The notes: generated by a model from the sequence alone, not told the origin. Counted from the first letter of the stretch, positions 9,237-28,670 are shown. The stretch is 52,796 nucleotides of DNA from Conexibacter sp. (GCA_025964325.1 JAOPZA010000075.1:1-52796), one strand, 5' to 3'. Numbers and translations: made by a program.

Positions 9237-9264
9237 TACAGGCTACCTGTACAGGCAGCCTGTA
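9237..9264. promoter_or_regulatory. Double MarR operator: two overlapping 15-bp palindromes
   Basis: TACAGGCTACCTGTA and TACAGGCAGCCTGTA share their terminal TA, so their centres are 13 bp apart. Both have perfect TACAGG/CCTGTA arms. They occupy nearly all of the gap between divergent marR and the MFS gene, and the second overlaps a likely -10 (TATGCT, 9263-9268) for the exporter. The expected result is repression of both genes by two bound MarR dimers. Confidence 0.8.
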
Positions 9265-9274
9265 TGCTTATCCG

Positions 9275-12587: not shown

Positions 12588-12593
12588 CGACTC

Positions 12594-13913
12594 CTACTCC
12601 TCCCGCCTGAAGCGCCGGATGTTCAGCAGCAGCGCCGGCACGACGAGCACGAACAGCAGCACGGCGATCGCCGACCCCAGGCCGAAGTCGTTGACGCCGC
12701 CGAACGACGTCCGCCACATCGCCAGCGCGATCACGTTCGCATCGTCCTGCGAGGACTGCGGCGCAACGGACAGGATGATGTCGAAGACCTTCAGGACGTT
12801 GATGATCATCGTGATGAAGACGACCGACAGGACCGGTGCGAGGAGCGGCACCGTGACGCGCCGGAAGACCTGCCACTCGGTCGCGCCGTCGGTCCGCGCG
12901 GCCTCCAGCACCTCGCGCGAGATCGCCGACAGGCCGGCCGCGATCACGACCATCGCGAAGCCGGCCCAGACCCAGATGTAGGCGATCATCACGGCCGGCG
13001 TGATCAGCTTCGGCCCGAGCCACGAGACGCCGCCGAACGGCGGCTCGAACGTCTTCTTCGAGATCGCGGCGTGGTAGATGCCGGGCTTCGCGCCGCCGAA
13101 CGCGAAGCTGCCATCGGCGCCCGCGGTCGTCGTCGCGACGGCCTTGCCGGCGCTGTCGCGCAACTCGACGGTCGCGCCGGGGATGCCGATCTCGCCCGGC
13201 TCGACCCGGCCCGGTCTGCCGCCGCCCGGTCTGAAGTCGCGCCAGACGGTGCCCGTGATCGCGCCGCTCCTCGGCGCCGCCGCGACCGCCTGCTTCGCGC
13301 CCTTCGGCACCGCCGCCGGCGGGATCGCGGTGAGCCCCAGCAGCGCGGTTGCGCCCGGCCGCAGCGGCGTGCGCAGCACGAAGCCCGTCTTCGTGCTGCC
13401 GACGAGCTGCGGCGTCGAGCCCTGTCCCTGGGTCAGCACGCCGGAGCTGCCGAACGCGCCCTTGACGGCCTTGATCGACGCGTTGACCGTCCCCTTGCCG
13501 GGGTCCTTGTCGTCCATCAGGTGCCAGATCACGCCGGCCGCGAAGAGCGAGATCGCCATCGGCATGAAGACCGCCGTCTTGAACGCCGTCGACCAGCGCA
13601 CGCGCTCGGTCAGCACGGCGAAGACGAGCCCGATCGCGGTCACCAGCGCCGGCACGACGGCGACCCACAGCGCGTTGTTCTTGAGCGCCGTCCGCAGCGT
13701 GTCGGTCGTGAAGATCGTCTTGTAGTTGTCGAGCCAGACGAACCCCGAGCCGTTGCGGTCGAAGAAGCTGCGGATCACCGTGCGGACGGTCGGATAGACG
13801 ATCCACACGCCGAGGAAGATCAGCGCGGGCAGCAGGAAGGCGGCCGGGACGAGGCGCTGGCGCCAGCGCCCCGTCCGCCCGTTGCCCGCCGCCGTGACCG
13901 CGGATGCCTCCAC
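12594..13913 (-). CDS. Carbohydrate ABC transporter permease (MalF-like) with an inserted extracytoplasmic beta-sandwich domain
   Basis: A 439-residue permease, longer than the usual 290-330. The first three helices (to about 132) are followed by about 155 extra residues before the next membrane helix at about 303. Residues 218-285 of the insert (GTVWRDFRPG, PGATVELRDSAGKAVATTT, DGSFAFGGAKPG) look like a Cna-B/SdrD-B or carboxypeptidase-regulatory-like beta-sandwich. The EAA loop EAARTDGATEWQVFRRVTVP (about 337-356) and the rest are normal. The insert lies in the external loop, where it could contact the binding protein, as the MalF P2 loop does, or the cell wall. Confidence 0.9.
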   Translation of the reverse strand: MEASAVTAAGNGRTGRWRQRLVPAAFLLPALIFLGVWIVYPTVRTVIRSFFDRNGSGFVWLDNYKTIFTTDTLRTALKNNALWVAVVPALVTAIGLVFAVLTERVRWSTAFKTAVFMPMAISLFAAGVIWHLMDDKDPGKGTVNASIKAVKGAFGSSGVLTQGQGSTPQLVGSTKTGFVLRTPLRPGATALLGLTAIPPAAVPKGAKQAVAAAPRSGAITGTVWRDFRPGGGRPGRVEPGEIGIPGATVELRDSAGKAVATTTAGADGSFAFGGAKPGIYHAAISKKTFEPPFGGVSWLGPKLITPAVMIAYIWVWAGFAMVVIAAGLSAISREVLEAARTDGATEWQVFRRVTVPLLAPVLSVVFITMIINVLKVFDIILSVAPQSSQDDANVIALAMWRTSFGGVNDFGLGSAIAVLLFVLVVPALLLNIRRFRREE

Positions 13914-13920
13914 GACGCCC

Positions 13921-15254
13921 CTACTTGAACGCCTTGCTGGCAGCCGCCTCGAGCTGCGCCTGCGTCCCGCTCACGTTGCTCGGGTTGTTGAGGAAGTCCT
14001 GCAGGATCTTCCACTCGCCCTGGCCCGGCGTGCCGCCGAACGAGGCCGGCTCGAGGTCGGACATGTCGAAGCGGAACGTCTGCGCGCTCGCGAGCGGCGC
14101 CGCGACCGTGCGCGTGATGTCGTCGGGGTAGGTGCTCGCCGGCACCGACTTGTTCGGCGAGGAGAAGCCGCCGCGTCTCGCCCACGCCTCGGCGCCCTGG
14201 GGGCTGGCGAGGAAGGTGACGAACGCCCGCACCGCGGGCGTGTCGCGGAAGACGGTGATCGAGTCGCCGCCGCCGACGACGACGTTCGCGCCGCCGCTGC
14301 CGATCGCCGGGAACGGGAAGACGCTGTAGCCGCTGCCGGCTCTCAGCTTCGTCTTGGTCGCGACGACGCCGGGGACGAAGTCGCCCTCGATCACCATCGC
14401 CGCTCTCGGCGGATCGGTGAAGACGTTCTCGACCGAGGTCGGGAAGTCGGTCTGCAGCGCACCGGCCTTGCCGCCGTTCACGTTCGACTGGTCGCCGATC
14501 ACCTGCGCCATCATTCTGAGCGCCTGCGCGACCGACGGGTCGGTCCACTTGATCTGGTGCTTCGTCAGCTGGTCGTACTTCTGCGGCCCCGCCTGCCGCA
14601 GGTAGATGTTCTCGAACAGGTCCGTGAGCGTCCAGCCGTCGGCGCCGCCGATCGAGTACGCCGGCGTGCCGGAGGCCTTCACCGTTCTCGCCGCCGTGAG
14701 GAAGTCGGCCCACGTCTTCGGCGCCGTCACGCCCGCGTTCTTGAGCGCGGCGACGTTGTACCAGACGGTCGACTTGTTGGCGCCCTTGTAGACGAAGCTG
14801 TAGAGATGGCCGTTGAGCGTCCCGAGCTTGACGAAGTCGGGCGGGTAGTTCGCGGTGATCGTCGCCCTCGCGAAGTCGATCGGCTTCGCCGCGCCCTTTC
14901 TCTGGAACTCCTCGATCAGGCCGGGCTGCGCGATCGTCGCGATGTCGGGCGGGTTGCCGCCCTGGACGGCGGTCGAGACGACGGTCGGGAGGTTGTCGCC
15001 GGCCGCCTGGTACCTCACCGTCACCTTCGGATAGGTCTTGTTGAACTCGCCGATGACGGCCTGGAACGATCTCTGCTCGTCCCCGGTCCAGATGCCGGTC
15101 ACCGAGATCGAGCCCGAGACGCTGCTCTTGGCGGCGGTCGTCGTCGCGCTCGTCGAGCTCCCCCCGCCGCTCTTCTTGCTGCTGCCGCAGCCGGCGAGCG
15201 CCGCCGCCGCCAGGACCACCGCCGCGAGCGCGAGCAGGTGGAGTCGATACCTCG

Positions 15255-15258
<4 letters not shown>
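13921..15258 (-). CDS. Sugar ABC transporter substrate-binding lipoprotein (family 1)
   Basis: A 445-residue extracellular binding protein with a lipoprotein signal peptide: a basic start, hydrophobic core and lipobox LAGC (Cys at about 24), then a Ser/Gly/Thr linker. The mature part starts [18 protein letters not shown]. It has the repeated features of the CUT1 family, e.g. [18 protein letters not shown] and [14 protein letters not shown]. Its ATG overlaps the stop of the ATPase gene. The size and the FTDPP..AMV.EGDF region resemble alpha-glucoside binding proteins (AglE type); this is a family impression, not a proven specificity. Confidence 0.92.
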
Positions 15259-16481
<1,223 letters not shown>

Positions 16482-16533
16482 GTGCACCACCTCCTCCGCT
16501 TAGCGTCGTACCCGGCGCGCGGTGTGTTGCAAA

Positions 16534-16584: not shown

Positions 16585-16608
16585 ACGCGTCGGAGGAGGG
16601 CAGCGTCG

Positions 16609-16630
16609 CGGGAGCCGAGCTTGGCTCCCG
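16609..16630 (-). terminator. Terminator hairpin of the ten-gene operon
   Basis: Perfect 8-bp arms CGGGAGCC / GGCTCCCG with a 6-base loop, beginning 5 bases past the dehydrogenase stop. Good placement and stem strength; there is no U-tract. Confidence 0.65.
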
Positions 16631-16635
16631 CCCGC

Positions 16636-17667
16636 TCAGCCGACCCGCAGCATCGTCTTCAGGCCCTCGCCGCGCTCGATCTGGGCGAAGGCGTCGAGCG
16701 CGTGGTCGAGCGGCAGCTGACCGGTGACGAGCTGGTCGAGGTCGATCTGCGCGCGGCTGAGCCAGCCGATCGCGTCGCGGAAGTGACGCGGCGTGCCGGC
16801 GAACGCGCCGACGATCGAGATCTGCTGGTAGTGGACGCGGTTGAGGTCGATCGGCACCTGCGCCTTGGCGGCCGGCATCCCCGCGAAGGCGAGGATCCGG
16901 CCGCACGGCGCGACCACCGACATCGCCAGCTCGACCGCCTGCGGCGCGCCGTTCGCCAGCACGACGACGTCCCAGCCGCGCGGTCCCCCGCGCGCCTTCA
17001 GCGCCGCCGGGTCGTCGCCGAGCAGCTCGACGGCGCCGTCGCCGAGGACGGCGGCCGCCGACGCGACCCGCTGCGCCAGCAGGTCGACGCCGAGCACCGG
17101 CGCCGCGCCGCGCGAGCGCGCGGCCGCCGCATGCAGCGTGCCGATCGGCCCGAGGCCGAGCACGAGGACCGAGTCGAGCGGGCCGATCTCGCCCCGCTCC
17201 TGCCCGCTGAGGACGGTGTGCAGCGGCTCGGCGAGCGTCGCCGAGCGCAGCGACAGCCCGTCGGGAAGCGGCACCACGCAGCCGGCCAGCACCGCGTCGG
17301 CGGGTACCGCGAACTGCTCCGCCATACCGCCGGGGAAGTCGTAGGCGAGCACGCGCCGGTTCGGGCAGAGGTTGTGGCGCGCGCGCTGGCACTGGTCGCA
17401 GCGCATGCAGGGCACGCCCGGGCAGACGGCGACCTGCGTCCCGACCGGGTATGCCTCGACGTCGGAGGCCGCGACGGTGCCGGAGACCTCGTGACCGAGC
17501 ACCTGCGGGCCGGCGAGGCGCGCGTTGCCGTGGCGCCACGTGCGTACGTCCGAGCCGCAGACACCGACGTAGCCGGTGCGCACGACGAGGCCGCCGGCCG
17601 CGAGCTGAGGCAGGGCGATCTGCTCGACCGCGACCGTTCCCGGCTCCTTGAACATCACCGCAAGCAT
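16636..17667 (-). CDS. Zinc-dependent medium-chain dehydrogenase (sorbitol/inositol-type)
   Basis: A 343-residue MDR-family NAD(P)-dependent dehydrogenase. Catalytic zinc ligands are visible as C37 and H59-E60 (GHE). Structural zinc cysteines are C87, C90, C93 and C101 (CMRCDQCQ...C). The Rossmann motif is LGLGPIG. It is the last gene of the ten-gene operon, 84 bases after the aldolase; the spacer holds a short hexanucleotide repeat, and GAAAGG/CCCTCC precede the ATG. Relatives oxidise polyols, inositols or sugar-derived alcohols. In this operon it probably oxidises or reduces a hydroxyl of the imported substrate or of an aldolase product. Confidence 0.9.
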   Translation of the reverse strand: MLAVMFKEPGTVAVEQIALPQLAAGGLVVRTGYVGVCGSDVRTWRHGNARLAGPQVLGHEVSGTVAASDVEAYPVGTQVAVCPGVPCMRCDQCQRARHNLCPNRRVLAYDFPGGMAEQFAVPADAVLAGCVVPLPDGLSLRSATLAEPLHTVLSGQERGEIGPLDSVLVLGLGPIGTLHAAAARSRGAAPVLGVDLLAQRVASAAAVLGDGAVELLGDDPAALKARGGPRGWDVVVLANGAPQAVELAMSVVAPCGRILAFAGMPAAKAQVPIDLNRVHYQQISIVGAFAGTPRHFRDAIGWLSRAQIDLDQLVTGQLPLDHALDAFAQIERGEGLKTMLRVG

Positions 17668-17684
17668 GGAGGGACCTTTCGTCT

Positions 17685-17708
17685 CAGGTTCAGGTTGAGG
17701 TTGAGTTG
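17685..17708. repeat. Short hexanucleotide tandem repeat upstream of the dehydrogenase
   Basis: Four 6-base units CAGGTT CAGGTT GAGGTT GAGTTG (minus strand AACCTG-like). It lies in the spacer just upstream of the ribosome-binding site of the zinc dehydrogenase. Too short to type as a VNTR, but unusual against the local background. Confidence 0.6.
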
Positions 17709-17751
17709 GGCGCCGGACCCCGGCGGGCGCGACGCCGGCTGTGACGACGGG

Positions 17752-18669
17752 TCAGGCCGCGCCGGCGAGCGCCGGATCGATGCGAGCGGCGACCCACCAC
17801 GGGCGCGCGTCGCGATCGACCCGCTCGGCGAGCGCGCGGACGCGCGCGGTCCCGCCGCGCGCCAGCTCCTCGCCCGGATCGGGCGCGGTCACCGCGGGGC
17901 TCCAGGAGCCGCGCCCGGCGAGGAAGCCGGAGGCGCCCCCGCGACAGACGGCGGTGACGGCGTCGCCGAATGCGTCGGCGGGGACGCCGTTGGAGAGTGC
18001 CACCCACGGCACGCCGACCGCCTCGGTCACGCGCCGGGCCTGGCGCTCGGTCGCCTCCGCGCCGTCGCGGTGGAGCGTCGGGACCTGCGTCTTGTAGAGG
18101 TCGGGCGCGAAGGAGCCGAACTCGACCGCCGCTTCGACGAGCGCGTCGTCGAAGCGCGGATCGTCGCCCGGCAGCTTCACGACGCCCTCCAGCACCGACA
18201 GCACGCCGAGCTCGGCGCAGCGCTCGACGAACGTCGCGCACTCCTCCGCCCGCTCGGCGGCCGGCTGCTCGGGACGCCAGTAGATGTAGAACTTCAGCGC
18301 CTGCACGCCCTGCGCGGGCAGCTCCGGCGTCATCGCCTCGCGGTCGAGCGACGTCGCCTCGAGCGGGCCGAGGCGCGGCTCGACGAAGCGGTCGACGGCG
18401 ACGATCCGGCCACAGGCCGGTGCCGCGGCGCGCAGCGCGTCGAGCGCCGGCCGGCCGTAGACGAGGTCGACCAGGAGCGCCGAGGCGACCGGGCCGAGCC
18501 GCTCCGCGACGAGCACCTTGAAGTCCGTCAGGTCGCCGTCCTCGGCCGCTCGGCCGGCGCGCGTGAGGATGGCGCGAAGCGATTCGCGGCCGTCGTCGGC
18601 GACGATCGCGAAGCCACCGCTCGGTCGGGCGATCGCCTGGAAGGCGGCGATCTTGTCGATGGTGCGCAT
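17752..18669 (-). CDS. Class I aldolase, LacD / YihT-like
   Basis: A 305-residue TIM barrel of the tagatose-bisphosphate aldolase LacD family, which also includes sulfofructose-phosphate aldolase YihT. The Schiff-base lysine is identifiable as K193 in APDLYKTQVP (LacD has a DVLKVEVP-type site). LKFYIYWRP at about 125-133, SVLEGVVKLPGD at about 158-169 and the phosphate-side loop GASGFLAGRG at about 245-254 all fit. It would cleave a ketose phosphate to dihydroxyacetone phosphate and an aldehyde. The kinase gene upstream would supply the phosphate. With a sulfonate-type importer in the same operon, a sulfosugar-like substrate is attractive but unproven. Confidence 0.82.
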   Translation of the reverse strand: MRTIDKIAAFQAIARPSGGFAIVADDGRESLRAILTRAGRAAEDGDLTDFKVLVAERLGPVASALLVDLVYGRPALDALRAAAPACGRIVAVDRFVEPRLGPLEATSLDREAMTPELPAQGVQALKFYIYWRPEQPAAERAEECATFVERCAELGVLSVLEGVVKLPGDDPRFDDALVEAAVEFGSFAPDLYKTQVPTLHRDGAEATERQARRVTEAVGVPWVALSNGVPADAFGDAVTAVCRGGASGFLAGRGSWSPAVTAPDPGEELARGGTARVRALAERVDRDARPWWVAARIDPALAGAA

Positions 18670-18697
18670 GGGGTCGGGAACTCCTCGTGAGCGTGGA

Positions 18698-19663
18698 TCA
18701 GGAAGTGGGGACGGCCACGTCGAGCGGCAGCGCCGTCCCGTAGGCGTCCTGGTGGCGGCGGGCGACCGCGACGCGATCGGGAAGGTTCGTCTGGCAGCCG
18801 CGCGCCTCGACGACGAAGCTCGCCACGACCGCGCCGACGCGCGCGGCGTCGAGCAGGCCGCCGCTGCCCGTCAGCGTCGCGGTCGCCGCGGCGACGAACG
18901 CGTCGCCGGCGCCGATCGGGTCGACGAGCACGGGCACGGGCACGGCCGGCACGTCGTGCGCGGAGCCGTCCGGCGCGAGCACGCGGACGCCGCGCGACCC
19001 GTGCGTGATCCAGGCGCCGCCGAAGCCGGCGCCGAAGAGCGCCCGCACGTCGTCGCAGCCGTGCACCCGCAGCAGCGCGTCGAGCTCCGGCTGGTTGCAC
19101 GCCAGGTGCGTGCAGCTCGCCAGCACGCGACGCTGCACCTCGGGCGGGGCGGTCATCAGCTGGCCGGAGGCGACGACGAGCGCGCCCGCCTCCCGCGCGA
19201 CCGCGGCCGCGCGCACGCAGTAGTCGTCGAAGGGCATGTTGAGCACGACGGCCTCGGCGTCGCGCAGCAGCGCGGCGGGCGGCTCGAGCGCGCCCTGCAG
19301 CCGCGCGGCCCCGGTCTCGACGACCAGGAACGACTCGCCGTCCGGGTCATGGACGAGGTAGCTGTGGCCCGACTGCTCGCCTGGCATGACCGTCACGCCG
19401 GAGACGTCGACGCCGGCCGCGACGAGCGCCTGCTCGTAGCCGGAGGCGCGGAAGTCCGCGCCGACGCAGAGGCACGTCCCGACCGCGAAGCCGAGGCGCG
19501 CGGCCGCCATCGCCTGGTTCAGGCCGCAGCCGCCGAAGCTGGTCGTGCCGGCCGGCCGCTCGAGCAGCACGGTGTCGCCGGCGACCGGCAGCGCGGGCAC
19601 CGGCAGCATGTGGTCGAACAGCGTGATCGAGCCGACCGTGACGAGGGCGAGGCGCTTGCTCAT
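18698..19663 (-). CDS. PfkB-family carbohydrate kinase
   Basis: A 321-residue ribokinase-fold kinase. Signature 1 region is FGGCGLNQAMAAARLG (about 43-58) and signature 2 is VDPIGAGDAFVAA with the catalytic Asp of GAGD. TFHD-like SITLFDHMLP near the start fits a substrate-binding lid. Its ATG overlaps the stop of the SIS gene, and it is followed after 28 bases by the aldolase. The pair kinase-aldolase implies phosphorylation of a ketose at C1 or C6, then retro-aldol cleavage, as in the tagatose and sulfofructose pathways. The exact sugar is unknown. Confidence 0.88.
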   Translation of the reverse strand: MSKRLALVTVGSITLFDHMLPVPALPVAGDTVLLERPAGTTSFGGCGLNQAMAAARLGFAVGTCLCVGADFRASGYEQALVAAGVDVSGVTVMPGEQSGHSYLVHDPDGESFLVVETGAARLQGALEPPAALLRDAEAVVLNMPFDDYCVRAAAVAREAGALVVASGQLMTAPPEVQRRVLASCTHLACNQPELDALLRVHGCDDVRALFGAGFGGAWITHGSRGVRVLAPDGSAHDVPAVPVPVLVDPIGAGDAFVAAATATLTGSGGLLDAARVGAVVASFVVEARGCQTNLPDRVAVARRHQDAYGTALPLDVAVPTS

Positions 19664-20244
19664 TCGACGTTCGGGCGGTTGTCGTCGATGTCCTCGTCGG
19701 ACAGGCCGCGCGCGTCCATCAGCAGCTTCGCGAGCGCCTCGCCGACGGCGAGCGCCGCGATGTCGAACGGCGCCGTGTACGGCGCCAGCGACGCCTGCTC
19801 GCGCAGCTTGCTGCGCGCCGGCACCACGAGCGCGTGGTCCGCCAGCCGCGCGACCGCGCTGTCGGGTTGGGACGTGAGCGCGATCACGGTCCCGCCGCCC
19901 GGCTCGGCGCCCAGTCCGGCGATCGTCACCGCGCTCGGCGAGCCGCCCGAGCCGGATATCACGATCAGCGCGTCGCGCTCGGTGAAGCGGGAGTTGCCGG
20001 CCTCGCCGATCAGCACGGCGTCGCAGCCGACGTGCGTGAGGCGCTGGCCGAGCGCGAGCGCGATCGCGCGCGAGCGCCCGGCGCCGAAGAGGAGGACCTT
20101 GCGGGCATCGGCGAGCGCGCCGGCGACGCGTTGCGCGGACGGCCAGTCGAGCTCCTGCGCGACGCGCTGCAGCGTGTGCGCCAGCTCCTCGACGACGGCG
20201 CGACCGAGCTCGTCGGGCGCGCGCTGCTCGGCTCCGCGGCTCAT
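19660..20244 (-). CDS. SIS-domain sugar isomerase, 6-phospho-3-hexuloisomerase-like
   Basis: A 194-residue single SIS domain: VLLFGAGRSRAIALALGQRLTHVG (about 44-67), then SGSGGSPSAV as the phosphosugar-binding loop and the tail LSDEDIDDNRPNVE. Length and layout resemble HxlB (PHI), including the terminal N(P/L)xE. I start at the ATG giving MSRGAEQRAP, which overlaps the TGA of the upstream GntR gene; the longer open frame is a shadow. It probably isomerises an aldose/ketose phosphate or a hexulose phosphate for the PfkB/aldolase steps. No HxlA (hexulose-phosphate synthase) is present, so a formaldehyde-fixing role is unlikely. Confidence 0.85.
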   Translation of the reverse strand: MSRGAEQRAPDELGRAVVEELAHTLQRVAQELDWPSAQRVAGALADARKVLLFGAGRSRAIALALGQRLTHVGCDAVLIGEAGNSRFTERDALIVISGSGGSPSAVTIAGLGAEPGGGTVIALTSQPDSAVARLADHALVVPARSKLREQASLAPYTAPFDIAALAVGEALAKLLMDARGLSDEDIDDNRPNVE

Positions 20245-21023
20245 GCGCCCGCTCCGGCGCCCGGCGAGAAGTGCGTCGTGAGCGCGATCCGGTCGCCGCG
20301 GTAGCGCGCGCGCGACCACTCCAGCGGCGCTCCGTTCGAGGCGGTCGCGAGCGACGTCACCACGAGCCCGGCCTCCCCCGCGTTCGCTCTCAGCAAGTCC
20401 GCGTCCTGCTCGCCGAGGTTGGCGGCCTCGATCTTCCGCGTGATGTCCGCGATCGTGATGCCGAAGCTGGTCTCGAGCACCTCGTAGAGCGACCGATCCT
20501 CGAGGTCGCGCTCGAGCAGCCCGGGGACGAGCGCGCTGGAGACGTAGGACTCGAGCAGGCAGAGCGGCTCGCCGTCGAGGAGGCGCAGCCGCAGCAGCCG
20601 CACGACGGCGGCGCCGGCGTTGAGCGCCAGCCGCTGCGACAGCTCGAGGTCGGCGACCAGCAGCTCGCGCTCCAGCAGCCGCGTGCGAAGGCGGTCGCGG
20701 AAGCGGATCGTGTCACGCTCGGGGCCGGTCCCGACCTGCATCAGCAGGCTGTCGAGCTTGCGCTCGGCGACGAACGTGCCCTTGCCGTGGACGCGGTAGA
20801 CGCGCCCCTCCTGCGAGAGCACGTCGAGCGCCTGGCGCACGACCGGACGGCTGACCGCGAACAGCCGGCAGAGCTCGTTCTCGGACGGCAGCACGGAGCC
20901 GACCGGGCAGCGTCCTGACTCCATCGCCTCGACGAGGATGTCGGCGAGCTGGCGGTAGAGCAGTCTGCCGGCGCTGCGGCTGACCGTCGCACCGGCGAAT
21001 GGATTGCTGTCAAGCGTGGACAT
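20241..21023 (-). CDS. GntR-family regulator with UTRA domain (HutC subfamily)
   Basis: A 260-residue regulator. The N-terminal winged HTH has LPSENELCRLFAVSRPVVRQALDVLSQEG at about residues 45-73 and VHGKGTFV. The C-terminal UTRA ligand-binding domain includes RLRLLDGEPLCLLESYVSSALVPGLL. GAGGGG lies 5 bases before the ATG. It is embedded in the ten-gene operon, overlapping the phosphotriesterase-like gene by 14 bases and the SIS gene by an ATGA. UTRA domains usually bind sugar phosphates or small metabolites, so it likely reports on a pathway phosphate and controls the promoter upstream of the ABC ATPase gene. Confidence 0.92.
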   Translation of the reverse strand: MSTLDSNPFAGATVSRSAGRLLYRQLADILVEAMESGRCPVGSVLPSENELCRLFAVSRPVVRQALDVLSQEGRVYRVHGKGTFVAERKLDSLLMQVGTGPERDTIRFRDRLRTRLLERELLVADLELSQRLALNAGAAVVRLLRLRLLDGEPLCLLESYVSSALVPGLLERDLEDRSLYEVLETSFGITIADITRKIEAANLGEQDADLLRANAGEAGLVVTSLATASNGAPLEWSRARYRGDRIALTTHFSPGAGAGA

Positions 21024-21969
21024 CGACGTCCCCTCGTACGTCGGCGCCGCGACCCTGGCTGTCGCGGTCGTAGGACAGGAAGCGTGCCGGATTGTCGACC
21101 AGCATCCGCTGCATCGCGGTCGCGGGGATGCCGCGCGCGATCAGCGCGGGCATCCAGCTGCGCAGCAGGTGGTCGAGGCCCGGCTCGCCGCCGTAGGCGT
21201 GGAGGTAGGAGCGACGGCCGAAGTCGCTCGAGAGCATGACGCGGTCCTCGTGCCCCTCGTCGAGCAGCCGCTCGAGGATGCGGTGGTAGTCCTCGACCGA
21301 CAGGTACTTCAGCTTGCCGATCTGGTCGAGCACGATGTTCGCGCCGGTCGCCAGCACCTCGAGCTGCCGCTCGACCCCGGCGCGGTCGAGGTGGCCGATC
21401 GCGATCCGCGCCGGGTCGACGCCCTCGCGGTCGAAGACGCGCAGCTGGTCGAGCGCGAGCTCGCCGTGCTCGGTGTGCGTCAGCAGCGGGGCGCCGCTGC
21501 GGACCTGCGCCCGCGCGGCGGCGCGCAGCACCTTCTCGTCCTGCTCGGAGAGCGCGCCGCGGCCGGAGCCGCCCTTGATCGCGCCGCTCGCGGGCGTCCC
21601 CTCGCCGGCCGGCTCGAGGTCGTCGCAGATGCGCTCGACGATCGCGTCGATGCTCTGGTCGGCGATCTGGGGCGCGGCGGTCGCGCCGCTGCGGAAGCCG
21701 GCGACCGCGACGATCGCGACGCCGCTGCGGCGCGAGACCGCCGCCAGTCCGTCGAGCGAGCGGGCGAAGTCCCAGCAGCTCATCTCGAGGACGCCGCCCC
21801 CGCCCGCGCCGGCCAGCTCGGTCAGCTCGCGCGCGGCGGCGTCGGCGTCGGGCAGGTGGAGGTCCGGCTCGCCGGGCGCCTCGTCGGGGCCGCCGAGCAG
21901 GTGCACGTGCATCAGGCAGCTGCCGAGCTGCTCGGCGGCGATCGGGCCGGTGACGGTGTGGACGGGCAT
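21010..21969 (-). CDS. Phosphotriesterase-family metal-dependent hydrolase (probable lactonase)
   Basis: A 319-residue amidohydrolase-superfamily protein of the PTE/PLL group. The binuclear metal site is readable: H21 and H23 (MHVHLLG), K132 as the carboxylated lysine (GAIKGG), H165 (LLTHTEHG), H193 (IGHLDRAG) and D249 (LSSDFG). DNPARFL near the end is typical. Bacterial PTE homologues outside pesticide degradation are mostly lactonases, including sugar-lactone-phosphate hydrolases. In this operon it most plausibly opens a lactone made by a dehydrogenase or by the monooxygenase. It lies 3 bases after the LLM gene. Confidence 0.9.
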   Translation of the reverse strand: MPVHTVTGPIAAEQLGSCLMHVHLLGGPDEAPGEPDLHLPDADAAARELTELAGAGGGGVLEMSCWDFARSLDGLAAVSRRSGVAIVAVAGFRSGATAAPQIADQSIDAIVERICDDLEPAGEGTPASGAIKGGSGRGALSEQDEKVLRAAARAQVRSGAPLLTHTEHGELALDQLRVFDREGVDPARIAIGHLDRAGVERQLEVLATGANIVLDQIGKLKYLSVEDYHRILERLLDEGHEDRVMLSSDFGRRSYLHAYGGEPGLDHLLRSWMPALIARGIPATAMQRMLVDNPARFLSYDRDSQGRGADVRGDVDVHA

Positions 21970-21972
21970 CGG

Positions 21973-23040
21973 CTAGCCCTCGACCTCGGCGTCGCGCCCG
22001 GCGGCGCCCGCGACTGCGGAGACGGCGGAGACCGCGGGCATCACCTCGCGGCAGAGCAGCTCGAGCGCGCGGTCGGCCTCGTCCATGCTCGGGCCGAGTG
22101 GGAGGCGCATCGAGATCTTCAGGTGGTCGTAGCCCTCCTCCGCGCAGCGCTGGATCGCCTCGACGCAGTCCGCGGGCGTCCCCATGATCAGGTGCCTGCG
22201 CGCGGTCTCGAGCGTGAAGTCGGCCGCCGACTGGAAGTCCGGGTGCTTGATCTGGCCGCGCTCCCAGTAGTACTTGAGGTCCTCGAGCCACAGCGGCGCG
22301 TACAGCTGCTCGACGGCGGCGCGATCCTCGCCGACCCAGCAGTGCCGCGTGATCGCGATCTCGCCGCGCTTGCCCTGCGCCGCGCACTCCTCGTGGTAGG
22401 CGTCGTGCAGGCGGGCGAGCTCCTCGCCGCCGAGCGGCCAGGCGATCGGCCAGCAGTCGCCGCGCCGGGCGGCGCGGCGCACGGCCGCGACCGACTGCCC
22501 GCCGATCCAGACGACCGGGCGCGGACGGCGGTAGGGGCGCGGCAGGATCTGCGCCCCGCGGTAGTGGAACATCTCGCCGTCGTAGTCGAAGCGCTCGCCG
22601 CTCCAGGCGAGGTCGAGCACGTCGAGCCCCTCGTCGAGGCGCGCGCGGCGCTCCTTCTTCTCGATCCCGAAGGCGGCGAAGTAGTCGTCGTTGAAGCCGA
22701 GTCCGATGCCGAGGATCAGCCGGCCCCGCGAGGCGAGGTCGACCAGCGCCGCCTGCTCGGCGACGTGGGCGGGGTTGTAGAGCGCCAGCAGCAGGACGTG
22801 GGTGGCGAGCCGCACGCGCTCTGTGTGCGTCGCGAGGATCCCCAGCAGCAGCAGCGGCGCCGGGAAGAACGTCTCGTGCCGCGCGTGCCGCTCGGCGACG
22901 TAGACGGTGTCGAAGCCGGCCTCGTCGGCCAGCCGCGCCTGCGCAACCAGCCGATCGAGGAACGTGCGGTACACGTCGGCATCCACGACGCCGCGCCCGT
23001 ACGCGCCGCCGTGGGTGTTGAGGGACAGTCCGATCTTCAT
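21973..23040 (-). CDS. LLM-class (luciferase-like) flavin- or F420-dependent oxidoreductase
   Basis: A 355-residue bacterial-luciferase-fold protein: MKIGLSLNTHGG start, FDTVYVAERH at about 43-52, RVRLATHVLLLALYNPAHVAEQAALVDLAS at about 74-103, and GRLILGIGLGF. These enzymes use FMNH2 with O2, or F420, e.g. to desulfonate alkanesulfonates (SsuD) or sulfoquinovose (SmoC). No flavin reductase gene is in the operon, so the reductant must come from elsewhere or be F420H2. The binding-protein gene ends 7 bases upstream, which ties import to this oxidation step. Which reaction it catalyses is unknown. Confidence 0.88.
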   Translation of the reverse strand: MKIGLSLNTHGGAYGRGVVDADVYRTFLDRLVAQARLADEAGFDTVYVAERHARHETFFPAPLLLLGILATHTERVRLATHVLLLALYNPAHVAEQAALVDLASRGRLILGIGLGFNDDYFAAFGIEKKERRARLDEGLDVLDLAWSGERFDYDGEMFHYRGAQILPRPYRRPRPVVWIGGQSVAAVRRAARRGDCWPIAWPLGGEELARLHDAYHEECAAQGKRGEIAITRHCWVGEDRAAVEQLYAPLWLEDLKYYWERGQIKHPDFQSAADFTLETARRHLIMGTPADCVEAIQRCAEEGYDHLKISMRLPLGPSMDEADRALELLCREVMPAVSAVSAVAGAAGRDAEVEG

Positions 23041-23047
23041 CGCCGGC

Positions 23048-24241
23048 TCACAGGCTCCCGGTCGGCTGCCACCAGCCGGTCTCCTTGAGGCCGAACTTCT
23101 GGACGTAGGCCTTCTGGAACTCGTCGCCGAGGAACTTGGAGTACGGAACCTTCGCCTTCAGCTGATGCGTCACGTCGGTGAAGTACGCGTTGTCCTTGTC
23201 CCAGATGTTCTTCCAGTAGCCGACCCCCGAGGGGTCGAGGATCATCTTCTGGACCTCGCCGGCGTTGAGCGGGTAGTGCTCGAGGTGCTGGAAGAAGCCT
23301 CGGAAGTCGGCGACCGTCATGCCGGCGGCCGTGTCCTTGTTGAGGTCGTCGGTGACGAATCTGCCGACCGCGTCGGTGTGCGCCTGCGTGTAGCGGATCG
23401 CCATGAACGTGACGCGCTGCAGGTTCAGCATCGCGTCCTGGTTCTTGTCGTAGAACGATCTCGTCGTGACGTAGCCGTTGAGCGGCGGAGCGGTGAAGTC
23501 GGCGCCGGCCAGCAGCGTGTCGTACTTCTCCTTCTCCAGCCGCGTGCGCTGCGGGATGCCGCCGAGGTAGGCGTCGCCGGTGCCGCGCAGGAAGGCCGCG
23601 AGACCCGGGTCGTAGTCGAGGTTGGTGATCTTCAGGTCGCTCGCCGTCATGCCGACGCTGCGCAGCGCCATCGTGAGGTTCGCGCCGACGTCGGTGCCGA
23701 GCGTCGTGACGACGTTCTTGCCCTTCAGCTGGGTCAGCGTCGCCTTGCGCGCGTCCGCGTCCGACATGCCCTGCGCCTTGAACTGCGCGAAGGTCTTGAG
23801 GTGGGCGCTCGGGCGCGCCATGATCGCCGAGCCCTGGTCGAAGATGTCCCACGGGTAGAGGTACGTGAGCTCGGGATCCTTCGCCGCCGTCTGGATCACG
23901 CCGGTCGTGTTGTAGACGGAGGCATCGAGCGAGCCGCTCGCCATCGCCGACATCATCGAGCCCCACGAGACGTTGACGAACTTCACGTCGAGGCACGCTC
24001 TCGCGTACCAGCCGAGCTGCTGCGGGACCTTCGTCAGCAGCGTGTCCTGGAACGGCGAGACGCCGAGGCGGATCGTCGTCGTCTTCTTGCAGGACTTGGC
24101 GGCGGCCTTGGTGGCGCTGCTCTCCGACGAGGACGACGAGCCGCAGGCGCCGAGCACGAGCGCCGCAGCCACGGCCAGTCCGATCAGGCCCAGCGCTCGC
24201 AGGCGCGAGCGCATCACGCGTTGATGCATCATCTTCTCCAC
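23048..24241 (-). CDS. ABC transporter substrate-binding lipoprotein, sulfonate/nitrate/taurine (SsuA/TauA/NMT1) type
   Basis: A 397-residue lipoprotein with lipobox LGAC (Cys at about 33) and a Ser-rich linker. The periplasmic-binding fold opens with TIRLGVSPFQDTLLTKVPQQLGWY, with LDVKFVNVSWGSMMSAMASGSLD after it. This is the SsuA/TauA layout (...GYF...V.....G....AL..G..D). A GTG at 24241 with GGAG upstream, or an internal ATG nine bases on, could be the start. It comes third in the operon, after the ATPase and permease. Ligand could be a sulfonate, a sulfosugar or another small anion; it is not a sugar-family (CUT) protein, though the operon's enzymes are sugar enzymes. Confidence 0.88.
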   Translation of the reverse strand: MEKMMHQRVMRSRLRALGLIGLAVAAALVLGACGSSSSSESSATKAAAKSCKKTTTIRLGVSPFQDTLLTKVPQQLGWYARACLDVKFVNVSWGSMMSAMASGSLDASVYNTTGVIQTAAKDPELTYLYPWDIFDQGSAIMARPSAHLKTFAQFKAQGMSDADARKATLTQLKGKNVVTTLGTDVGANLTMALRSVGMTASDLKITNLDYDPGLAAFLRGTGDAYLGGIPQRTRLEKEKYDTLLAGADFTAPPLNGYVTTRSFYDKNQDAMLNLQRVTFMAIRYTQAHTDAVGRFVTDDLNKDTAAGMTVADFRGFFQHLEHYPLNAGEVQKMILDPSGVGYWKNIWDKDNAYFTDVTHQLKAKVPYSKFLGDEFQKAYVQKFGLKETGWWQPTGSL

Positions 24242-24269
24242 TCTCTCCTGATGAATTGACCTGCGTGCG

Positions 24270-25154
24270 TCACTGACCGCGCTCGACCCAGCGCGTGATC
24301 CGCTCGGCCACGATCCGGATGATCTGCTCCAGCAGGAACGCGAGCAGGCCGATCGCGATCGTGCCGACGAGCACGACGGCGGTGTTGAGCGTGTGGCTCG
24401 CCTGGAGGATCAGGTAGCCGATCCCGTTCTGCGCGCCGAGGTACTCGGCCGCGACGATCACCGCCCACGAGAGCGCGGCGGCGATGCGCAGGCCCGAGAC
24501 GAGGTGCGGCACGATCGCGCGCAGGACGACCGACCAGTAGACGCGGTTCTCCCCCGCGCCCAGCGTCCGCGCCGCCTGCAGGTAGACGGGATTGACGTTG
24601 CGGGCCGCCACGTGCGTCGTGACGACCATGATCATGAAGCAGGACAGCGACCCGAGCAGGATCCGCCCGGGCTCGCCGAGTCCGAACCAGAGGATCACGA
24701 ACGGGATCAGCGCGATCGGCGGGACCGGCCGCAGCGCCTCGATCAACGGGTTGACGAGGTAGTACGCGATCCGCGAGCGCCCCATCAGCAGGCCCGCCGC
24801 GATGCCGGCCGAGCAGCCGATCGCCCACGACAGCAGCACCCGCCACGTGGTCGCCCAGGCGTCGTCGACCAGCGTGCCGCCGAGCTGGTTCAGCGCATGC
24901 CCGACGTCGCTGTAGGAGGGGAAGTAGAGCGGCTTGATCGCGCCCGTCGCGTCCGTCAGCACGTACCAGGCGACGAGCACCGCGGCGACGCTGAGCAGGC
25001 CCAGGAGGGCGAGCGGCTGACGCTTGCGCGTGCGATTCGCGATCCGCACGTCGGCCGGCACGACCGCGTCGGGCGGGGCCGGCGCCGAGGTGTCGTCCGG
25101 GCTGCCGCCGGGGCCGGCGAGCGGGGTCTGCGTCGCTCCGTTGGTCATGCTCAT
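24270..25154 (-). CDS. ABC transporter permease, SsuC/TauC type
   Basis: A 294-residue inner-membrane permease with about six helices after a long proline/alanine-rich cytoplasmic N-terminus (about 38 residues). The BPD_transp_1 domain includes RTLGAGENRVYWSVVLRAIVPHLVSGLRIA, the EAA-type ATPase contact, and AVIVAAEYLGAQNGIGYLIL, a hallmark of the nitrate/sulfonate/taurine permeases. Its start overlaps the stop of the ATPase gene. Works with the SsuB-like ATPase and the SsuA-like lipoprotein of the same operon. Confidence 0.92.
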   Translation of the reverse strand: MSMTNGATQTPLAGPGGSPDDTSAPAPPDAVVPADVRIANRTRKRQPLALLGLLSVAAVLVAWYVLTDATGAIKPLYFPSYSDVGHALNQLGGTLVDDAWATTWRVLLSWAIGCSAGIAAGLLMGRSRIAYYLVNPLIEALRPVPPIALIPFVILWFGLGEPGRILLGSLSCFMIMVVTTHVAARNVNPVYLQAARTLGAGENRVYWSVVLRAIVPHLVSGLRIAAALSWAVIVAAEYLGAQNGIGYLILQASHTLNTAVVLVGTIAIGLLAFLLEQIIRIVAERITRWVERGQ

Positions 25155-25933
25155 GCGGCCTCTCCGAGCGTCGCCTGCACCCGGCGGCGCAGCTGCTGGA
25201 AGGGCTCCGTCGTCTTGATCGCGAGGTCGCGCGGACGGTCGTAGGGCACCTCGATGACCTCCTTGATGCGTCCGGGCCGCGGCGTCATGACGACGACGCG
25301 GTCGCCGAGGTAGATCGCCTCCTCGATGTCATGGGTGATGAACAGCGAGGTCTTGCCGTCGCTGACCGACAGCCGCATCAGCTCGCGCTGGAGGTGCGAC
25401 TTCGTCATGTCGTCGACGGCGCCGAACGGCTCGTCGAGCAGGATCACGCCGGGGTCGTTGACGTAGGCGCGCGCGACATCGACGCGCTTGCGCATGCCGC
25501 CCGAGAGCATCTTCGGGTAGGCGTCGGCGAAGTCGCGCAGCCCCATCAGCTCGAGGTAGTGGTCGACGCGCTCGCGCGCGGCGTCGTCGAAGCGCCCGCG
25601 GGCGCGCGGCCCGTACTCGAGGTTGCGACGCACCGTCAGCCACGGGAAGACGGCGTCGGCCTGGAAGACGACGGCGCGGTCGGCGCCGGGGGCGCCGACC
25701 GCGCGGCCCTCCATCGACACGCTGCCCGAGGAGGGGGACAGGAAGCCGCCGATGAGGTTGAGGATCGTGCTCTTGCCGCAGCCCGACGGTCCGACGAGGC
25801 AGACCGTCTCGCCCTCGCGGACGTCGAGCGAGACGCTGTCCAGCGCGCAGATCGTCTGCCCGCGAATCGAGAAGTAGACGGAGGCGTCGCTCAGAGCGAG
25901 GTGGCTCGCGGCGTCATGTCGACAGGAGGTCAT
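25151..25933 (-). CDS. ABC transporter ATP-binding protein, SsuB/TauB type
   Basis: A 260-residue ATPase: Walker A GPSGCGKST, Q-loop FQADAVFPWLTV, signature LSGGMRKRVDVARAY, Walker B VILLDEPFGAVDD, and H-loop in LFITHDIEEAIYLGDRVVVM. The FPWLTV and DDMTK stretches are typical of the nitrate/sulfonate/taurine group. First gene of the ten-gene operon. A TTGACT-16-TATAGC promoter ends about 10 bases upstream of the ATG and no Shine-Dalgarno is present, so translation of a very short leader is likely. Confidence 0.93.
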   Translation of the reverse strand: MTSCRHDAASHLALSDASVYFSIRGQTICALDSVSLDVREGETVCLVGPSGCGKSTILNLIGGFLSPSSGSVSMEGRAVGAPGADRAVVFQADAVFPWLTVRRNLEYGPRARGRFDDAARERVDHYLELMGLRDFADAYPKMLSGGMRKRVDVARAYVNDPGVILLDEPFGAVDDMTKSHLQRELMRLSVSDGKTSLFITHDIEEAIYLGDRVVVMTPRPGRIKEVIEVPYDRPRDLAIKTTEPFQQLRRRVQATLGEAA

Positions 25934-25943: not shown

Positions 25944-25971
25944 GCTATATGACCCGCGTCACACAAGTCAA
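25944..25971 (-). promoter_or_regulatory. Promoter of the ten-gene operon with an internal TGAC-N4-GTCA dyad
   Basis: On the minus strand -35 TTGACT and -10 TATAGC are 16 bases apart. The spacer contains TGACCCGCGTCA (25950-25961), a 4-bp-arm dyad that would place a bound repressor squarely on the promoter. The promoter overlaps the last codons of the upstream amidotransferase-like gene. Candidate repressor: the operon's own UTRA GntR protein. Confidence 0.65.
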
Positions 25972-26816
25972 GGCCCCGGTCTGCCGCGACGGCGGTCGGC
26001 GCGCACTGCTGGCGCGGCCAAGCGCTCGCGGCCGCCGAGCCAGCCCAGCAGCGAGGCCCACAGCCGCAGGTAGCCGTCCCAGGCGACGAAGCCGGGCGGT
26101 GCCCAGTGCGGCGCGAGGTCGGAGGCGAACGCCGCGGTGCGGCCCGCGCCGTGCGAGCCGACCGCGAGGATCGGGTCCTCCCCGTGCGTCGCGAGCACCG
26201 TCGCGCCCACCCTCGGCAGCACGCGGTTGTAGCCGAGCAGCGGCGGCCACGGCCCCGGCACGTCGCGCAGCGCCGGATGCGCTGCGTCGGTCACCTCCGC
26301 GACGAAGCCCTGCGGCAGCTCGACGCGGTCGTCGTGGTCGAGCACCTCGACCGGCAGCACGCCGGCGAGCGGCGAGGAGCCGTAGCGGGCGCGTCCGTCG
26401 ATCCCGGCGAACGACATGTAGCCGCCGATCATCAGCAGGCCGCCGCCGCCGGCGACGTAGCCGGCGATCGCCTCGAGCCGGTTGGGCGCGATCTGGGAGC
26501 GCGCGAACGTCTGGGGCCCGAGCAGGAACGTGTTGCTGCCGACGTCGCTGAGGATCACGGCGTCGTAGCCGGCGAGCGCCTGCGCGCTGTCGGGGAAGCG
26601 CGCCGGAACCTCGTGGCAGGGCACGTAGTCGAGCTCGTGACCGAGCCCGCGGACCTGCGCGACGAAGTGCGTCGCGCCCTCGGTGTAGTCGGTCGTGTGG
26701 AAGGCGTCGAAGCCCTTCAGGTGGGTCACGTGGGTGACCCAGGACTCGCCGGCCAGCAGCAGTCGCAGGGGCGCTCGGGGCGGATCAGCCGAGGCGGCCG
26801 TCGGGGAAGCGCTCAC
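25968..26816 (-). CDS. Putative glutamine amidotransferase-like protein (PF07090 type)
   Basis: A 282-residue class-I-amidotransferase-fold protein: RLLLAGESWVTHVTHLKGFDAFHTTDYTEG opening, YDAVILSDVGSNTFLL, then GGGLLMIGGYMSFAGIDG, and GAGRTAAFASDLAPHWAP near the end. The family often lacks a normal nucleophile Cys; here the SDVGSNTFLL strand has no obvious catalytic Cys, so it may not be a true amidase. GTG start with GGAGG 5 bases upstream. It overlaps the lactonase gene by 32 bases. The function of these proteins is unknown; they often sit in sugar or amino-sugar loci. Confidence 0.78.
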   Translation of the reverse strand: MSASPTAASADPPRAPLRLLLAGESWVTHVTHLKGFDAFHTTDYTEGATHFVAQVRGLGHELDYVPCHEVPARFPDSAQALAGYDAVILSDVGSNTFLLGPQTFARSQIAPNRLEAIAGYVAGGGGLLMIGGYMSFAGIDGRARYGSSPLAGVLPVEVLDHDDRVELPQGFVAEVTDAAHPALRDVPGPWPPLLGYNRVLPRVGATVLATHGEDPILAVGSHGAGRTAAFASDLAPHWAPPGFVAWDGYLRLWASLLGWLGGRERLAAPAVRADRRRGRPGP

Positions 26817-27618
26817 GGAACCTCCAGTCGTGGTTGGGGACGATCAGGTCGGACTCCGCGCGCATGCGGTCATAGCCCCGGATCACGCCGGCGAGGTCCC
26901 AGAACGAGCCGTTCGGCCAGCGCAGCTCGAGGTTTCGGTAGTTGTAGGCGGCGTCGCTGGCGAGGCAGACGCGGCCGCGCGCGGTCTCGACGACGGTCGC
27001 CATCTGCCCGGGCGTGTGGCCGCCGAGCTTCAACAGGCGCACGCCCGGCTCGAGCGGCGCGTCGCCGTCGATCACGTCGAGACGGTCGACGATCGCATGC
27101 AGCCGGCGCGCGTCCTCGGGGTAGTAGAAGGTCGCCCACGGCGGCGGGGCGAGCCCCAGCGGCAGCTCGTCGCGCTGCACGACGAAGCGCGCGTTCGGGA
27201 ACAGCTCGACGTTGCCGACGTGGTCGAAGTGCAGGTGGGTCAGGACGACGACCTCGACGTCCTCGGGCGCGACCCCGCGGGCGGCGAGGCCGGCGACGAG
27301 GTCCTGCTCATCCGACTTCGTCGCGACGAAGTCGATCCCGTAGCGGCGCTGCATCGCCTCGACCTCGTCGATCGGTCCCAGGCCGGTGTCGATCAGCGTC
27401 ACGCGGGCGGTGCCCTCGATCAGCCAGACCGGGACCGGAACCATCGAGCCGGCCGCCCGCGTGCCGTCCTGGCGGGGGAAGTCCTCGCGGTAGGCGTACG
27501 GCAGGATCTGCTGCCGGCTCAGGTGCGGCGAGATGCCGCCGCCGAGCAGGTCGACCTCCAGCGAGCTCTCCAGCTCGCCCGTGACGATCTGCTGGATCGC
27601 GAGCCGCGGGCTCGTCAT
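26785..27618 (-). CDS. Metallo-beta-lactamase-fold lactonase (N-acyl-homoserine-lactonase-like)
   Basis: A 277-residue MBL-fold hydrolase of the AiiA/AttM lineage. D77 in LIDTGLG, the metal motif HLHFDH at about 128-133 with a following GN, GGHTPGQMA with another ligand His (about 200), SDAAY with the bridging Asp, and a final IVPNHD. AiiA-like enzymes open gamma-lactones, of acyl-homoserine or other acids. Its ATG overlaps the LacI stop and it overlaps the amidotransferase-like gene. With the PTE-like lactonase in the next operon, this is the second lactonase candidate within 6 kb. Confidence 0.88.
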   Translation of the reverse strand: MTSPRLAIQQIVTGELESSLEVDLLGGGISPHLSRQQILPYAYREDFPRQDGTRAAGSMVPVPVWLIEGTARVTLIDTGLGPIDEVEAMQRRYGIDFVATKSDEQDLVAGLAARGVAPEDVEVVVLTHLHFDHVGNVELFPNARFVVQRDELPLGLAPPPWATFYYPEDARRLHAIVDRLDVIDGDAPLEPGVRLLKLGGHTPGQMATVVETARGRVCLASDAAYNYRNLELRWPNGSFWDLAGVIRGYDRMRAESDLIVPNHDWRFRERFPDGRLG

Positions 27619-28670
27619 CGTGAAGCTCCCTTCGTCGTGGGGCCCGTCGCCGGGCCGCTGCTCTGGCGCGCAACGAGCTCGACGTCGAGCACCACCCTGC
27701 TGAGCTCGGAGCCGTCCTCGCCGGCCAACGCCGCCGCCAGCCGCTCGGCCGCGATCCAGCCCATCCGCTGGACGGGCTGGCGGACCGTCGTGAGCGCCGG
27801 TCGCACGAGCCCCGCGAGCACCGTGTCGTCGTAGCCGACGACCGAGACGTCCTGCGGCACGCGCAGGCCCGCGACCGCGAGCGCCTCGATCGCCGCGAGG
27901 GCGACGACGTCGTTGGCGGCGAAGACGGCGGTGAACGGAGGCGCGCCGCCACGGCGCGCGGCGAGGGCCTGCGCGACCGCGGCGGCCGTGCGGTCGGCGC
28001 GATAGTCGCCGGCGACGTGCGTGAGGCGGGCCTCGCAGCCGGCGAACGCCGCGGCGAAGCCGGCGCCCCGGTCGCGTGCCGATCGCAGCTCCCGCGGGCC
28101 CTCGAGCACGAGCACGTCACGATGGCCGAGCGCGCGCAGATGCTCGCCGGCGAGGCGGCCGCCGCGCGCGTTGTCGGAGACGACGCTGCTGGCGGCGACA
28201 CCCTCCAGCTCCTCGTCGACGATCACGAGCTGGAAGGTCCGCGCCAGCTCCGCGAGCCGCTCGGTCCGCGGTGGCGCGCCGGCGGCGTAGAGCATGCCGT
28301 CGACGCGGCCGGCGCGCAGGACGTCGAGGTAGCGCTCCTCGCGTGCGGCGTCGAAGGCGGTGTTGCACAGCAGCAGGCTCAGGCCGCGCGCCTCCGCGGC
28401 GTCCTCCGCCCCGCGCGCCAGCTCCGCGAAGTACGGATTCGCGATGTCGGGGACGAGCAGGCCGATCGTGCGCGAGTGCCCGCGACGCAGGCTCTGGGCG
28501 ACGTGGTTCGGCACGTAGCCGAGCTCCCGCATCGCGGCGCGCACCCCGGCCGCCGTCTGCTCGCCGACCGGCCGTCTCCCGCTGATCACGTGCGAGACGG
28601 TCGTCGCGCTCACGCCGGCGGCGGCGGCGACGTCGGCGATGGAGACCGATCGGGAGCTCACGCGGGGCAC
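27615..28670 (-). CDS. LacI-family transcriptional regulator
   Basis: About 351 residues: N-terminal HTH VSIADVAAAAGVSATTVSHVISGRR, hinge NHVAQSLRRG, then a periplasmic-binding-type effector domain (TIGLLVPDIANPYFAELARGAE onward). Two GTG starts are possible (28670 or 28661), neither with a Shine-Dalgarno, suggesting a leaderless mRNA. A GCAAAACGATTTGC operator lies just upstream, so it probably represses itself and the downstream lactonase and amidotransferase-like genes, and perhaps the ten-gene operon beyond. The effector is probably a sugar or lactone. Confidence 0.92.
   Translation of the reverse strand: MPRVSSRSVSIADVAAAAGVSATTVSHVISGRRPVGEQTAAGVRAAMRELGYVPNHVAQSLRRGHSRTIGLLVPDIANPYFAELARGAEDAAEARGLSLLLCNTAFDAAREERYLDVLRAGRVDGMLYAAGAPPRTERLAELARTFQLVIVDEELEGVAASSVVSDNARGGRLAGEHLRALGHRDVLVLEGPRELRSARDRGAGFAAAFAGCEARLTHVAGDYRADRTAAAVAQALAARRGGAPPFTAVFAANDVVALAAIEALAVAGLRVPQDVSVVGYDDTVLAGLVRPALTTVRQPVQRMGWIAAERLAAALAGEDGSELSRVVLDVELVARQSSGPATGPTTKGASR

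Follow-up and report, generated by a model that had tools for sequence, protein, structure and literature searches.

Which compound is broken down by a set of genes that places a sulfonate-type importer and a luciferase-like monooxygenase (LLM) beside enzymes of sugar-phosphate metabolism? We address this question for ten minus-strand genes of Conexibacter sp. (GCA_025964325.1, JAOPZA010000075.1:1-52796; this whole stretch of 52,796 nucleotides is referred to as the window), which come from a draft assembly of 251 contigs with an estimated contamination of 3.85%. A preliminary description of the sequence had framed these genes in terms of the known sulfosugar routes, while leaving the identity of the substrate hedged. 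Judged by the families that they encode, the genes resemble a sugar pathway built on a kinase and an aldolase, to which an additional arm for oxidation and lactone opening would be joined. We tentatively read them, with a probability of about 0.4, as an operon, induced by its substrate, for the catabolism of a single imported compound derived from a sugar; an arm formed by the LLM and a lactonase would be combined in it with a kinase-aldolase chain.

Organization of the ten genes

Between 25933 and 16636 on the minus strand, all ten of the open reading frames (ORFs) predicted earlier are in place, and each matches the Pfam family under which it had been named (Table 1). The GC content at third codon positions (GC3) is 0.94-0.98 for the operon ORFs chosen by the gene caller. 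Reading from the ATP-binding cassette (ABC) ATPase gene to the gene for a medium-chain dehydrogenase (MDR), the junction spacings are -4, +28, +7, +3 and -14 bases, then the GntR/SIS junction, then -4, +28 and +84 bases. The start of the SIS gene is better set at the ATG at 20244, which makes the GntR/SIS junction a 4-base ATGA overlap. Tight junctions had been described as "mostly overlapping ends"; the tightness is real, but overlaps occur at only four of the nine junctions, with spacings of at most 28 bases at four more, so that the wording was slightly overstated. Since ten catabolic genes are very unlikely to be packed so closely on one strand by chance, we regard them as an operon-like unit. 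The ends of the transcript are neither certain nor proven, because, beyond what the preliminary description mentions, three co-directional genes end 34 bases upstream and a sugar importer begins 145 bases downstream.

What had been called one clear promoter is a plausible candidate: its 16-nt spacer separates elements that agree with the consensus at 9 of 12 positions ahead of the ATG at 25933, but a consensus scanner does not list it under its stricter rule. Its -35 element overlaps the stop of the upstream gene. The hairpin reported after the last gene does lie directly 3' of the MDR stop.

Table 1. Features of the operon-like unit, in the direction of transcription.
Feature	Position	Strand	Basis
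Candidate promoter TTGACT-16-TATAGC	25944..25971 (-35 = 25971-25966, -10 = 25949-25944)	-	read in sequence
ABC ATPase, NitT/TauT (SsuB/TauB/NrtCD) type	25151..25933	-	PF00005 5.8e-33
ABC permease, TauC/SaoP/SsuC type	24270..25154	-	PF00528
Lipoprotein substrate-binding protein, NMT1/SsuA superfamily	23048..24241	-	PF09084 4.6e-10
Luciferase-like monooxygenase / oxidoreductase (LLM)	21973..23040	-	PF00296 5.7e-61
Phosphotriesterase-family (COG1735) lactonase-type hydrolase	21010..21969	-	PF02126 3e-48
GntR/UTRA regulator	20241..21023	-	PF07702 1e-36, PF00392 1.2e-17
SIS isomerase, 6-phospho-3-hexuloisomerase-like	19660..20244 (ORF readable also from 20319)	-	PF01380 3e-13
PfkB kinase, ribokinase-like	18698..19663	-	PF00294 5.1e-40
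Class I (Schiff-base) aldolase, DeoC/LacD family, YihT-like	17752..18669	-	PF01791 2.4e-20
Zinc medium-chain dehydrogenase (MDR), polyol type	16636..17667	-	PF08240/PF00107
GC hairpin, 9-bp stem, 6-base loop, no T-run	16608..16631	-	read in sequence

Comparison of the aldolase and kinase with sulfoglycolysis

The known sulfosugar routes employ a YihS or SqvD isomerase, a YihV or SqiK kinase, a YihT or SqiA aldolase and a sulfolactaldehyde (SLA) oxidoreductase; an alternative route employs a C-S cleaving oxygenase (PMC9594981, PMC12890257). The sulfosugar idea was reasonable, since the sulfofructose-phosphate (SFP) aldolase YihT is the clear best match of the operon aldolase among solved structures (2.8e-46, versus 1.4e-12 for tagatose aldolases). 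It would join kinase-aldolase sulfoglycolysis to a desulfonating LLM, acting on a sulfosugar or another C6-anionic sugar. Like the sulfo-Embden-Meyerhof-Parnas (sulfo-EMP) pathway, known from yih of E. coli and from an Arthrobacter variant, the operon encodes a PfkB kinase and a class I aldolase of the DeoC/LacD family, and it shares ABC import with the actinobacterial variant (PMC8873060). The family of the transporter also includes taurine and alkanesulfonate importers, and the hexuloisomerase could conceivably take a sulfonate in place of the 6-phosphate.

The sequence relationships of the aldolase, however, weaken this idea. In a tree built from 100 relatives, among them the best 80 of a GTDB-wide scan, all enzymes linked to yihS or yihU fall within a supported clade of 22 aldolases (SH-aLRT 98), and the operon aldolase falls outside it, near actinobacterial aldolases linked to FGGY kinases; because its branch is long, its exact place is unsure. 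In an alignment with 99 relatives, Lys193 (the Schiff base), Lys126, Glu161 and Arg253 are constant throughout, the operon aldolase included. The pocket residues, which were compared by gene linkage only (yihS/yihU-linked enzymes versus others), give a different picture. Position 227 is Ser in 11 of 11 yihS/yihU-linked aldolases, Gln or Asn in most others, and Asn in the operon aldolase; position 27 is Gln in 96 of the 99 rows and Gly in the operon aldolase (DGR instead of DQR); and position 255, which is Val, Ile or Leu in all rows, is Ser. The corresponding motifs of the operon aldolase are DGR, LSNG and RGSW. It is likely that the enzyme is an active Schiff-base aldolase with a substrate other than that of YihT. 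Position 227 may also help to separate sulfofructose-phosphate aldolases from look-alikes.

The kinase leads in the same direction, scoring 84 bits as a ribokinase versus 56 bits as a sulfofructose kinase; at 25% identity to YihV, it is not an enzyme of the YihV type. Searches by tblastn with YihQ, YihS, YihU and SsuE (E. coli) and with an Arthrobacter SlaB homologue gave no match in the window (SqvD was not searched), in line with the earlier statement that the operon lacks a flavin reductase and a GH31 glycosidase. In place of the sulfoquinovose (SQ) isomerase YihS there is the SIS protein, which, together with the LLM and the phosphotriesterase (PTE)-family hydrolase, is an addition relative to sulfo-EMP.

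The closest aldolases listed (44-48% identity) belong to loci of Naasia, Actinophytocola and Nonomuraea that pair a YihT-like aldolase with an FGGY rather than a PfkB kinase, and no other operon gene was found there. In three actinobacterial loci, the FGGY-type kinase gene stands directly upstream of the aldolase gene. Freshwater actinobacteria (Planktophila and relatives) carry a conserved pair of PfkB kinase and YihT-like aldolase, often with a GntR gene upstream; their aldolases have LSNG where the sulfo-EMP enzymes have LSSG (13 loci, and similar ones).

The luciferase-like monooxygenase

The LLM might still supply the desulfonating step, as in the sulfo-ASMO (Smo) and SsuEADCB systems, which likewise encode a luciferase-superfamily enzyme with an ABC importer. 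Those systems differ from the operon in their other downstream enzymes and in having a flavin reductase or glycosidase, and the LLM is not of the SsuD type. The alkanesulfonate monooxygenase model (alk_sulf_monoox) gives it 58 bits against a cut-off of 518, and an alignment with E. coli SsuD shows that the equivalents of Cys54 and Arg226 (residue numbers and roles that we take to be those of the literature) are not kept. We also compared folds, using an AlphaFold (AF2) model that was built from a small alignment and has a predicted local distance difference test (pLDDT) score of 85. Its nearest solved folds are 2i7g, 7bip and 8cbb, with Z scores of 34.6 for 2i7g, 32.9 for RslO1 (7bip) and 32.3 for bacterial luciferase; lower scores are obtained with FGD1 (29.5), the type II Baeyer-Villiger enzyme 5aec (29.2), MsuD (28.2) and SsuD (26.9). 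As modelled, the LLM is thus nearer to the Atu2307/RslO1/luciferase group of flavin mononucleotide (FMN) monooxygenases than to SsuD and MsuD.

The choice of cofactor bears on a second alternative, according to which the LLM would be an FGD-like dehydrogenase that uses F420 to convert a sugar or sugar phosphate directly into a lactone; the PTE-type enzyme would then hydrolyse this lactone, and the remaining steps would be as in our own proposal. The only NCBIfam LLM model that the protein passes, TIGR03619, is named F420-dependent, although the margin is 0.8 bit; FGD1 aligns at the Z score given above, and such an enzyme would make a flavin reductase unnecessary. CofH, an F420 biosynthesis gene, is present in the genome, which makes a supply of F420 probable; the genome also contains four Flavin_Reduct genes outside the operon. 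Either FMN or F420 is therefore a possible cofactor, and the flavin reductases elsewhere in the genome make one within the operon dispensable. But the FMN monooxygenases 2i7g and 7bip outrank FGD1 in the fold comparison, as 7bip does in sequence, so that the modelled fold favours FMN. We judge the F420-dependent alternative possible but unlikely.

Two candidates were set aside in the course of this comparison. The CofD family was dropped as a marker of F420 in favour of CofH, as the control also matches in genomes such as E. coli, and a riboflavin lyase was rejected as an identity for the LLM, since RcaE is absent from the sequence matches and ranks lower in fold. Separately, four of four haloarchaeal loci with LLM relatives have a Gfo/Idh/MocA oxidoreductase gene directly after the LLM gene, and three of the four have fumarylacetoacetate hydrolase-family genes close by.

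The importer

As importers of the NitT/TauT group require, the NMT1/SsuA-like binding protein is accompanied by a matching permease and ATPase, and we assign the importer to this type by its sequence. The group as a whole carries nitrate, taurine, alkanesulfonates, and pyrimidine and vitamin precursors. For the ATPase, the best NCBIfam model is ntrCD (227 bits, cut-off 292), followed by SaoA (217) and TauB (203), all below cut-off; the permease reaches 142 of 342 bits with the TauC model. The binding protein falls below the curated sulfonate cut-offs (SsuA_fam 47.9/163.5 bits, TauA 31.4/304 bits), and no solved structure is related to it at E <0.01. Because every curated model stays below its cut-off and the binding protein has no solved relative, sulfonate transport is not supported beyond the level of the superfamily.

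The aldolase tree and pocket residues, the rankings of kinase and LLM, and the remoteness of the binding protein all weaken the sulfosugar frame, and the earlier hedge about the substrate stands. Of the features specific to sulfo-EMP or to SsuD that we tested, none was found in these sequences. A sulfosugar link is consequently not supported, and we consider the corresponding pathway quite improbable.

The lactonase-type hydrolase

The six canonical PTE metal ligands of the hydrolase (H21, H23, K132, H165, H193, D249) are invariant in an alignment with five relatives, so that the binuclear metal site of the family is complete. Its best solved match is 3pnz, which we take to be a sugar-phosphate lactonase; the equivalog model for phospho-furanose lactonase is not reached (96.6/630 bits). 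Relatives at 29-37% identity occur in Listeria, Enterococcus and Alicyclobacillus, where they belong to operons for sugars or sugar acids. These COG1735 sugar(-phosphate) lactonase operons share with ours the PTE-type hydrolase and its metal ligands, and the Listeria and Alicyclobacillus loci also share a GntR regulator, but the partners of the hydrolase there are phosphotransferase system (PTS) or sugar ABC transport genes and not an LLM. Its further partners vary (creatininase-family, KDPG/KDGP-type aldolase or dehydratase genes). A second PTE gene of the Conexibacter genome lies near a creatininase-like gene. The gap of three bases between the LLM and PTE genes suggests, and does not demonstrate, that the two enzymes handle successive steps.

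A proposed pathway

We propose that the compound enters through the NitT/TauT importer and that the LLM, acting as an FMN-type monooxygenase, oxidises it, possibly in a lactone-forming step like that of type II Baeyer-Villiger enzymes; the PTE-type lactonase would open the resulting lactone or ester. The polyol-type MDR dehydrogenase would yield a ketose, the hexuloisomerase-like SIS protein would shift the carbonyl, the ribokinase-like PfkB enzyme would phosphorylate, and the Schiff-base aldolase would cleave the product to dihydroxyacetone phosphate and an aldehyde. Until an intermediate builds up, the GntR/UTRA protein would keep the operon repressed. The proposal does not fix whether the oxidative or the phosphorylating half acts first.

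The individual assignments have different footings. For the SIS protein, HxlB is the best model yet stays under its equivalog cut-off (104/160 bits), and the solved matches are AF1796, YckF/HxlB and MJ1247. The best solved matches of the MDR protein are sorbitol and xylitol dehydrogenases, and the regulator is below all NCBIfam cut-offs. A megaplasmid of Enterococcus raffinosus provides an independent case of the MDR-SIS pairing: within a PTS operon, an MDR gene is followed directly by a gene for a hexuloisomerase-like SIS protein.

In favour of the proposed pathway we count the protein families, the metal site of the hydrolase, the catalytic residues of the aldolase, the polyol matches of the MDR enzyme and the tight co-directional packing, along with the E. 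raffinosus pair, the enterobacterial aldolase-MDR pairs described below and the PTE relatives in sugar operons. The FMN-monooxygenase-like fold of the LLM, with 5aec close, and the flavin reductases elsewhere in the genome count on the same side. Several points weigh against it. The LLM-lactonase pair occurs in no other of the loci compared, and its pairing is for that reason a matter of adjacency; LLM relatives at 31-37% identity lie in unrelated, partly acyl-CoA-type contexts; the AF2 model of the binding protein (pLDDT 48) was too poor to be used; and the mid-operon position of the GntR gene could mark the seam of two modules.

If it does mark a seam, then two modules may share one transcript, with the importer, LLM and PTE-type enzyme scavenging one compound and the products from GntR to MDR (SIS, PfkB and aldolase between them) serving another sugar. 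The occurrence of LLM relatives without sugar genes fits such a division, as does the finding that the two halves are together in no second genome among the loci compared; the overlapping PTE/GntR/SIS/PfkB junctions, on the other hand, argue for one unit, and we judge the division into two modules possible but unlikely. A more specific route, in which an anionic (sulfonated, phosphonated or uronate-like) sugar would pass aerobically through LLM and lactonase to isomerase, kinase and an aldolase of new specificity, appears improbable.

Should the ten genes act together in a single pathway, this would add a catabolic route to those covered by the sulfosugar reviews (PMC9594981, PMC12890257), one whose aldolase is substituted at near-constant positions and in which an LLM serves sugar catabolism. 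If they do not, the locus would show that a YihT-like best match suggests sulfoglycolysis too easily.

In five clusters of Erwinia, Enterobacter, Citrobacter and Escherichia, a YihT-type aldolase gene is followed directly by an MDR gene. These yihV-yihU-yihT-MDR clusters resemble the operon in this order and in their PfkB kinase; they differ in having true YihT, YihV and YihU orthologues and MFS transporters (seen in one cluster, L130), and in lacking LLM, PTE and SIS genes. No yihS or yihQ match was found within 8 kb of them. In L130, two MFS sugar transporter genes and an aldose epimerase gene come after the MDR gene (clusters at about 8900-12000). The enterobacterial clusters may represent a variant of sulfo-EMP that handles a sulfo-polyol or a different sulfosugar.

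Conservation of the gene set

The preliminary description had proposed a search for the same gene order in other genomes and had named the lack of conservation anywhere as a refutation of its reading; in the collections searched, the order was not found again. The aldolase has no close relatives in 101 related genomes; its neighbourhoods in 396 genomes of the phylum contain kinase-aldolase pairs at most, and the best identity among the matches listed in the GTDB-wide alignment scan is 48%. Across genomes of the class (299), the phylum (296) and the family (146), no LLM relative exceeds 37%, and the neighbourhoods are unrelated. In 246 genomes, the binding protein gave two remote matches only and the PTE protein gave relatives at 34-40%. 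A plasmid collection searched with the aldolase, LLM, binding protein, PTE and SIS sequences held no shared operon, and in particular no relative of the binding protein at 1e-10; viral contigs held no match to the LLM. Among the GTDB-wide matches listed, the related-genome samples and the plasmids, the aldolase is never paired with the LLM, PTE, SIS or binding protein. None of 175 loci from other genomes or records has more than three of the eight core genes, and the four that reach three have the aldolase, GntR and MDR genes only.

The lack of a conserved order removes evidence for a selected pathway and does not disprove the pathway. The GATase1_like gene upstream of the operon has, by contrast, relatives at 51-60% identity in the same genus and family; the contig therefore fits its lineage, while the operon looks lineage-specific, acquired or very rare.

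Neighbouring genes

Upstream on the same strand (25968-28640) lie LacI, metallo-beta-lactamase fold (acyl-homoserine lactone (AHL)-lactonase-like) and GATase1_like genes. The relatives of the last adjoin LacI and ribokinase-like PfkB genes, and for two of them a neighbouring gene with a DCDPGIDDA motif looks like a nucleoside hydrolase. These neighbours raise the idea of nucleoside or N-glycoside catabolism, in which a base-sugar compound would be imported, the LLM would attack the base, and the kinase and aldolase would use the sugar. RutA and RcaE are LLMs, and binders of thiamine precursors and of riboflavin are known among NMT1-type proteins. But the ten genes do not include the GATase1_like gene, neither RutA nor RcaE is the closest relative of the LLM, and no nucleoside hydrolase is seen in the operon; this idea is very unlikely.

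Downstream on the same strand, a CUT1 sugar importer (ATPase, binding protein and two permeases; 11673-16490) could serve the same sugar as the operon or another one. A further sugar-type locus occupies 45843-52214 of the window and combines a sugar-type ABC cassette with genes for a second GntR protein, a VOC-like protein and an additional MDR dehydrogenase.

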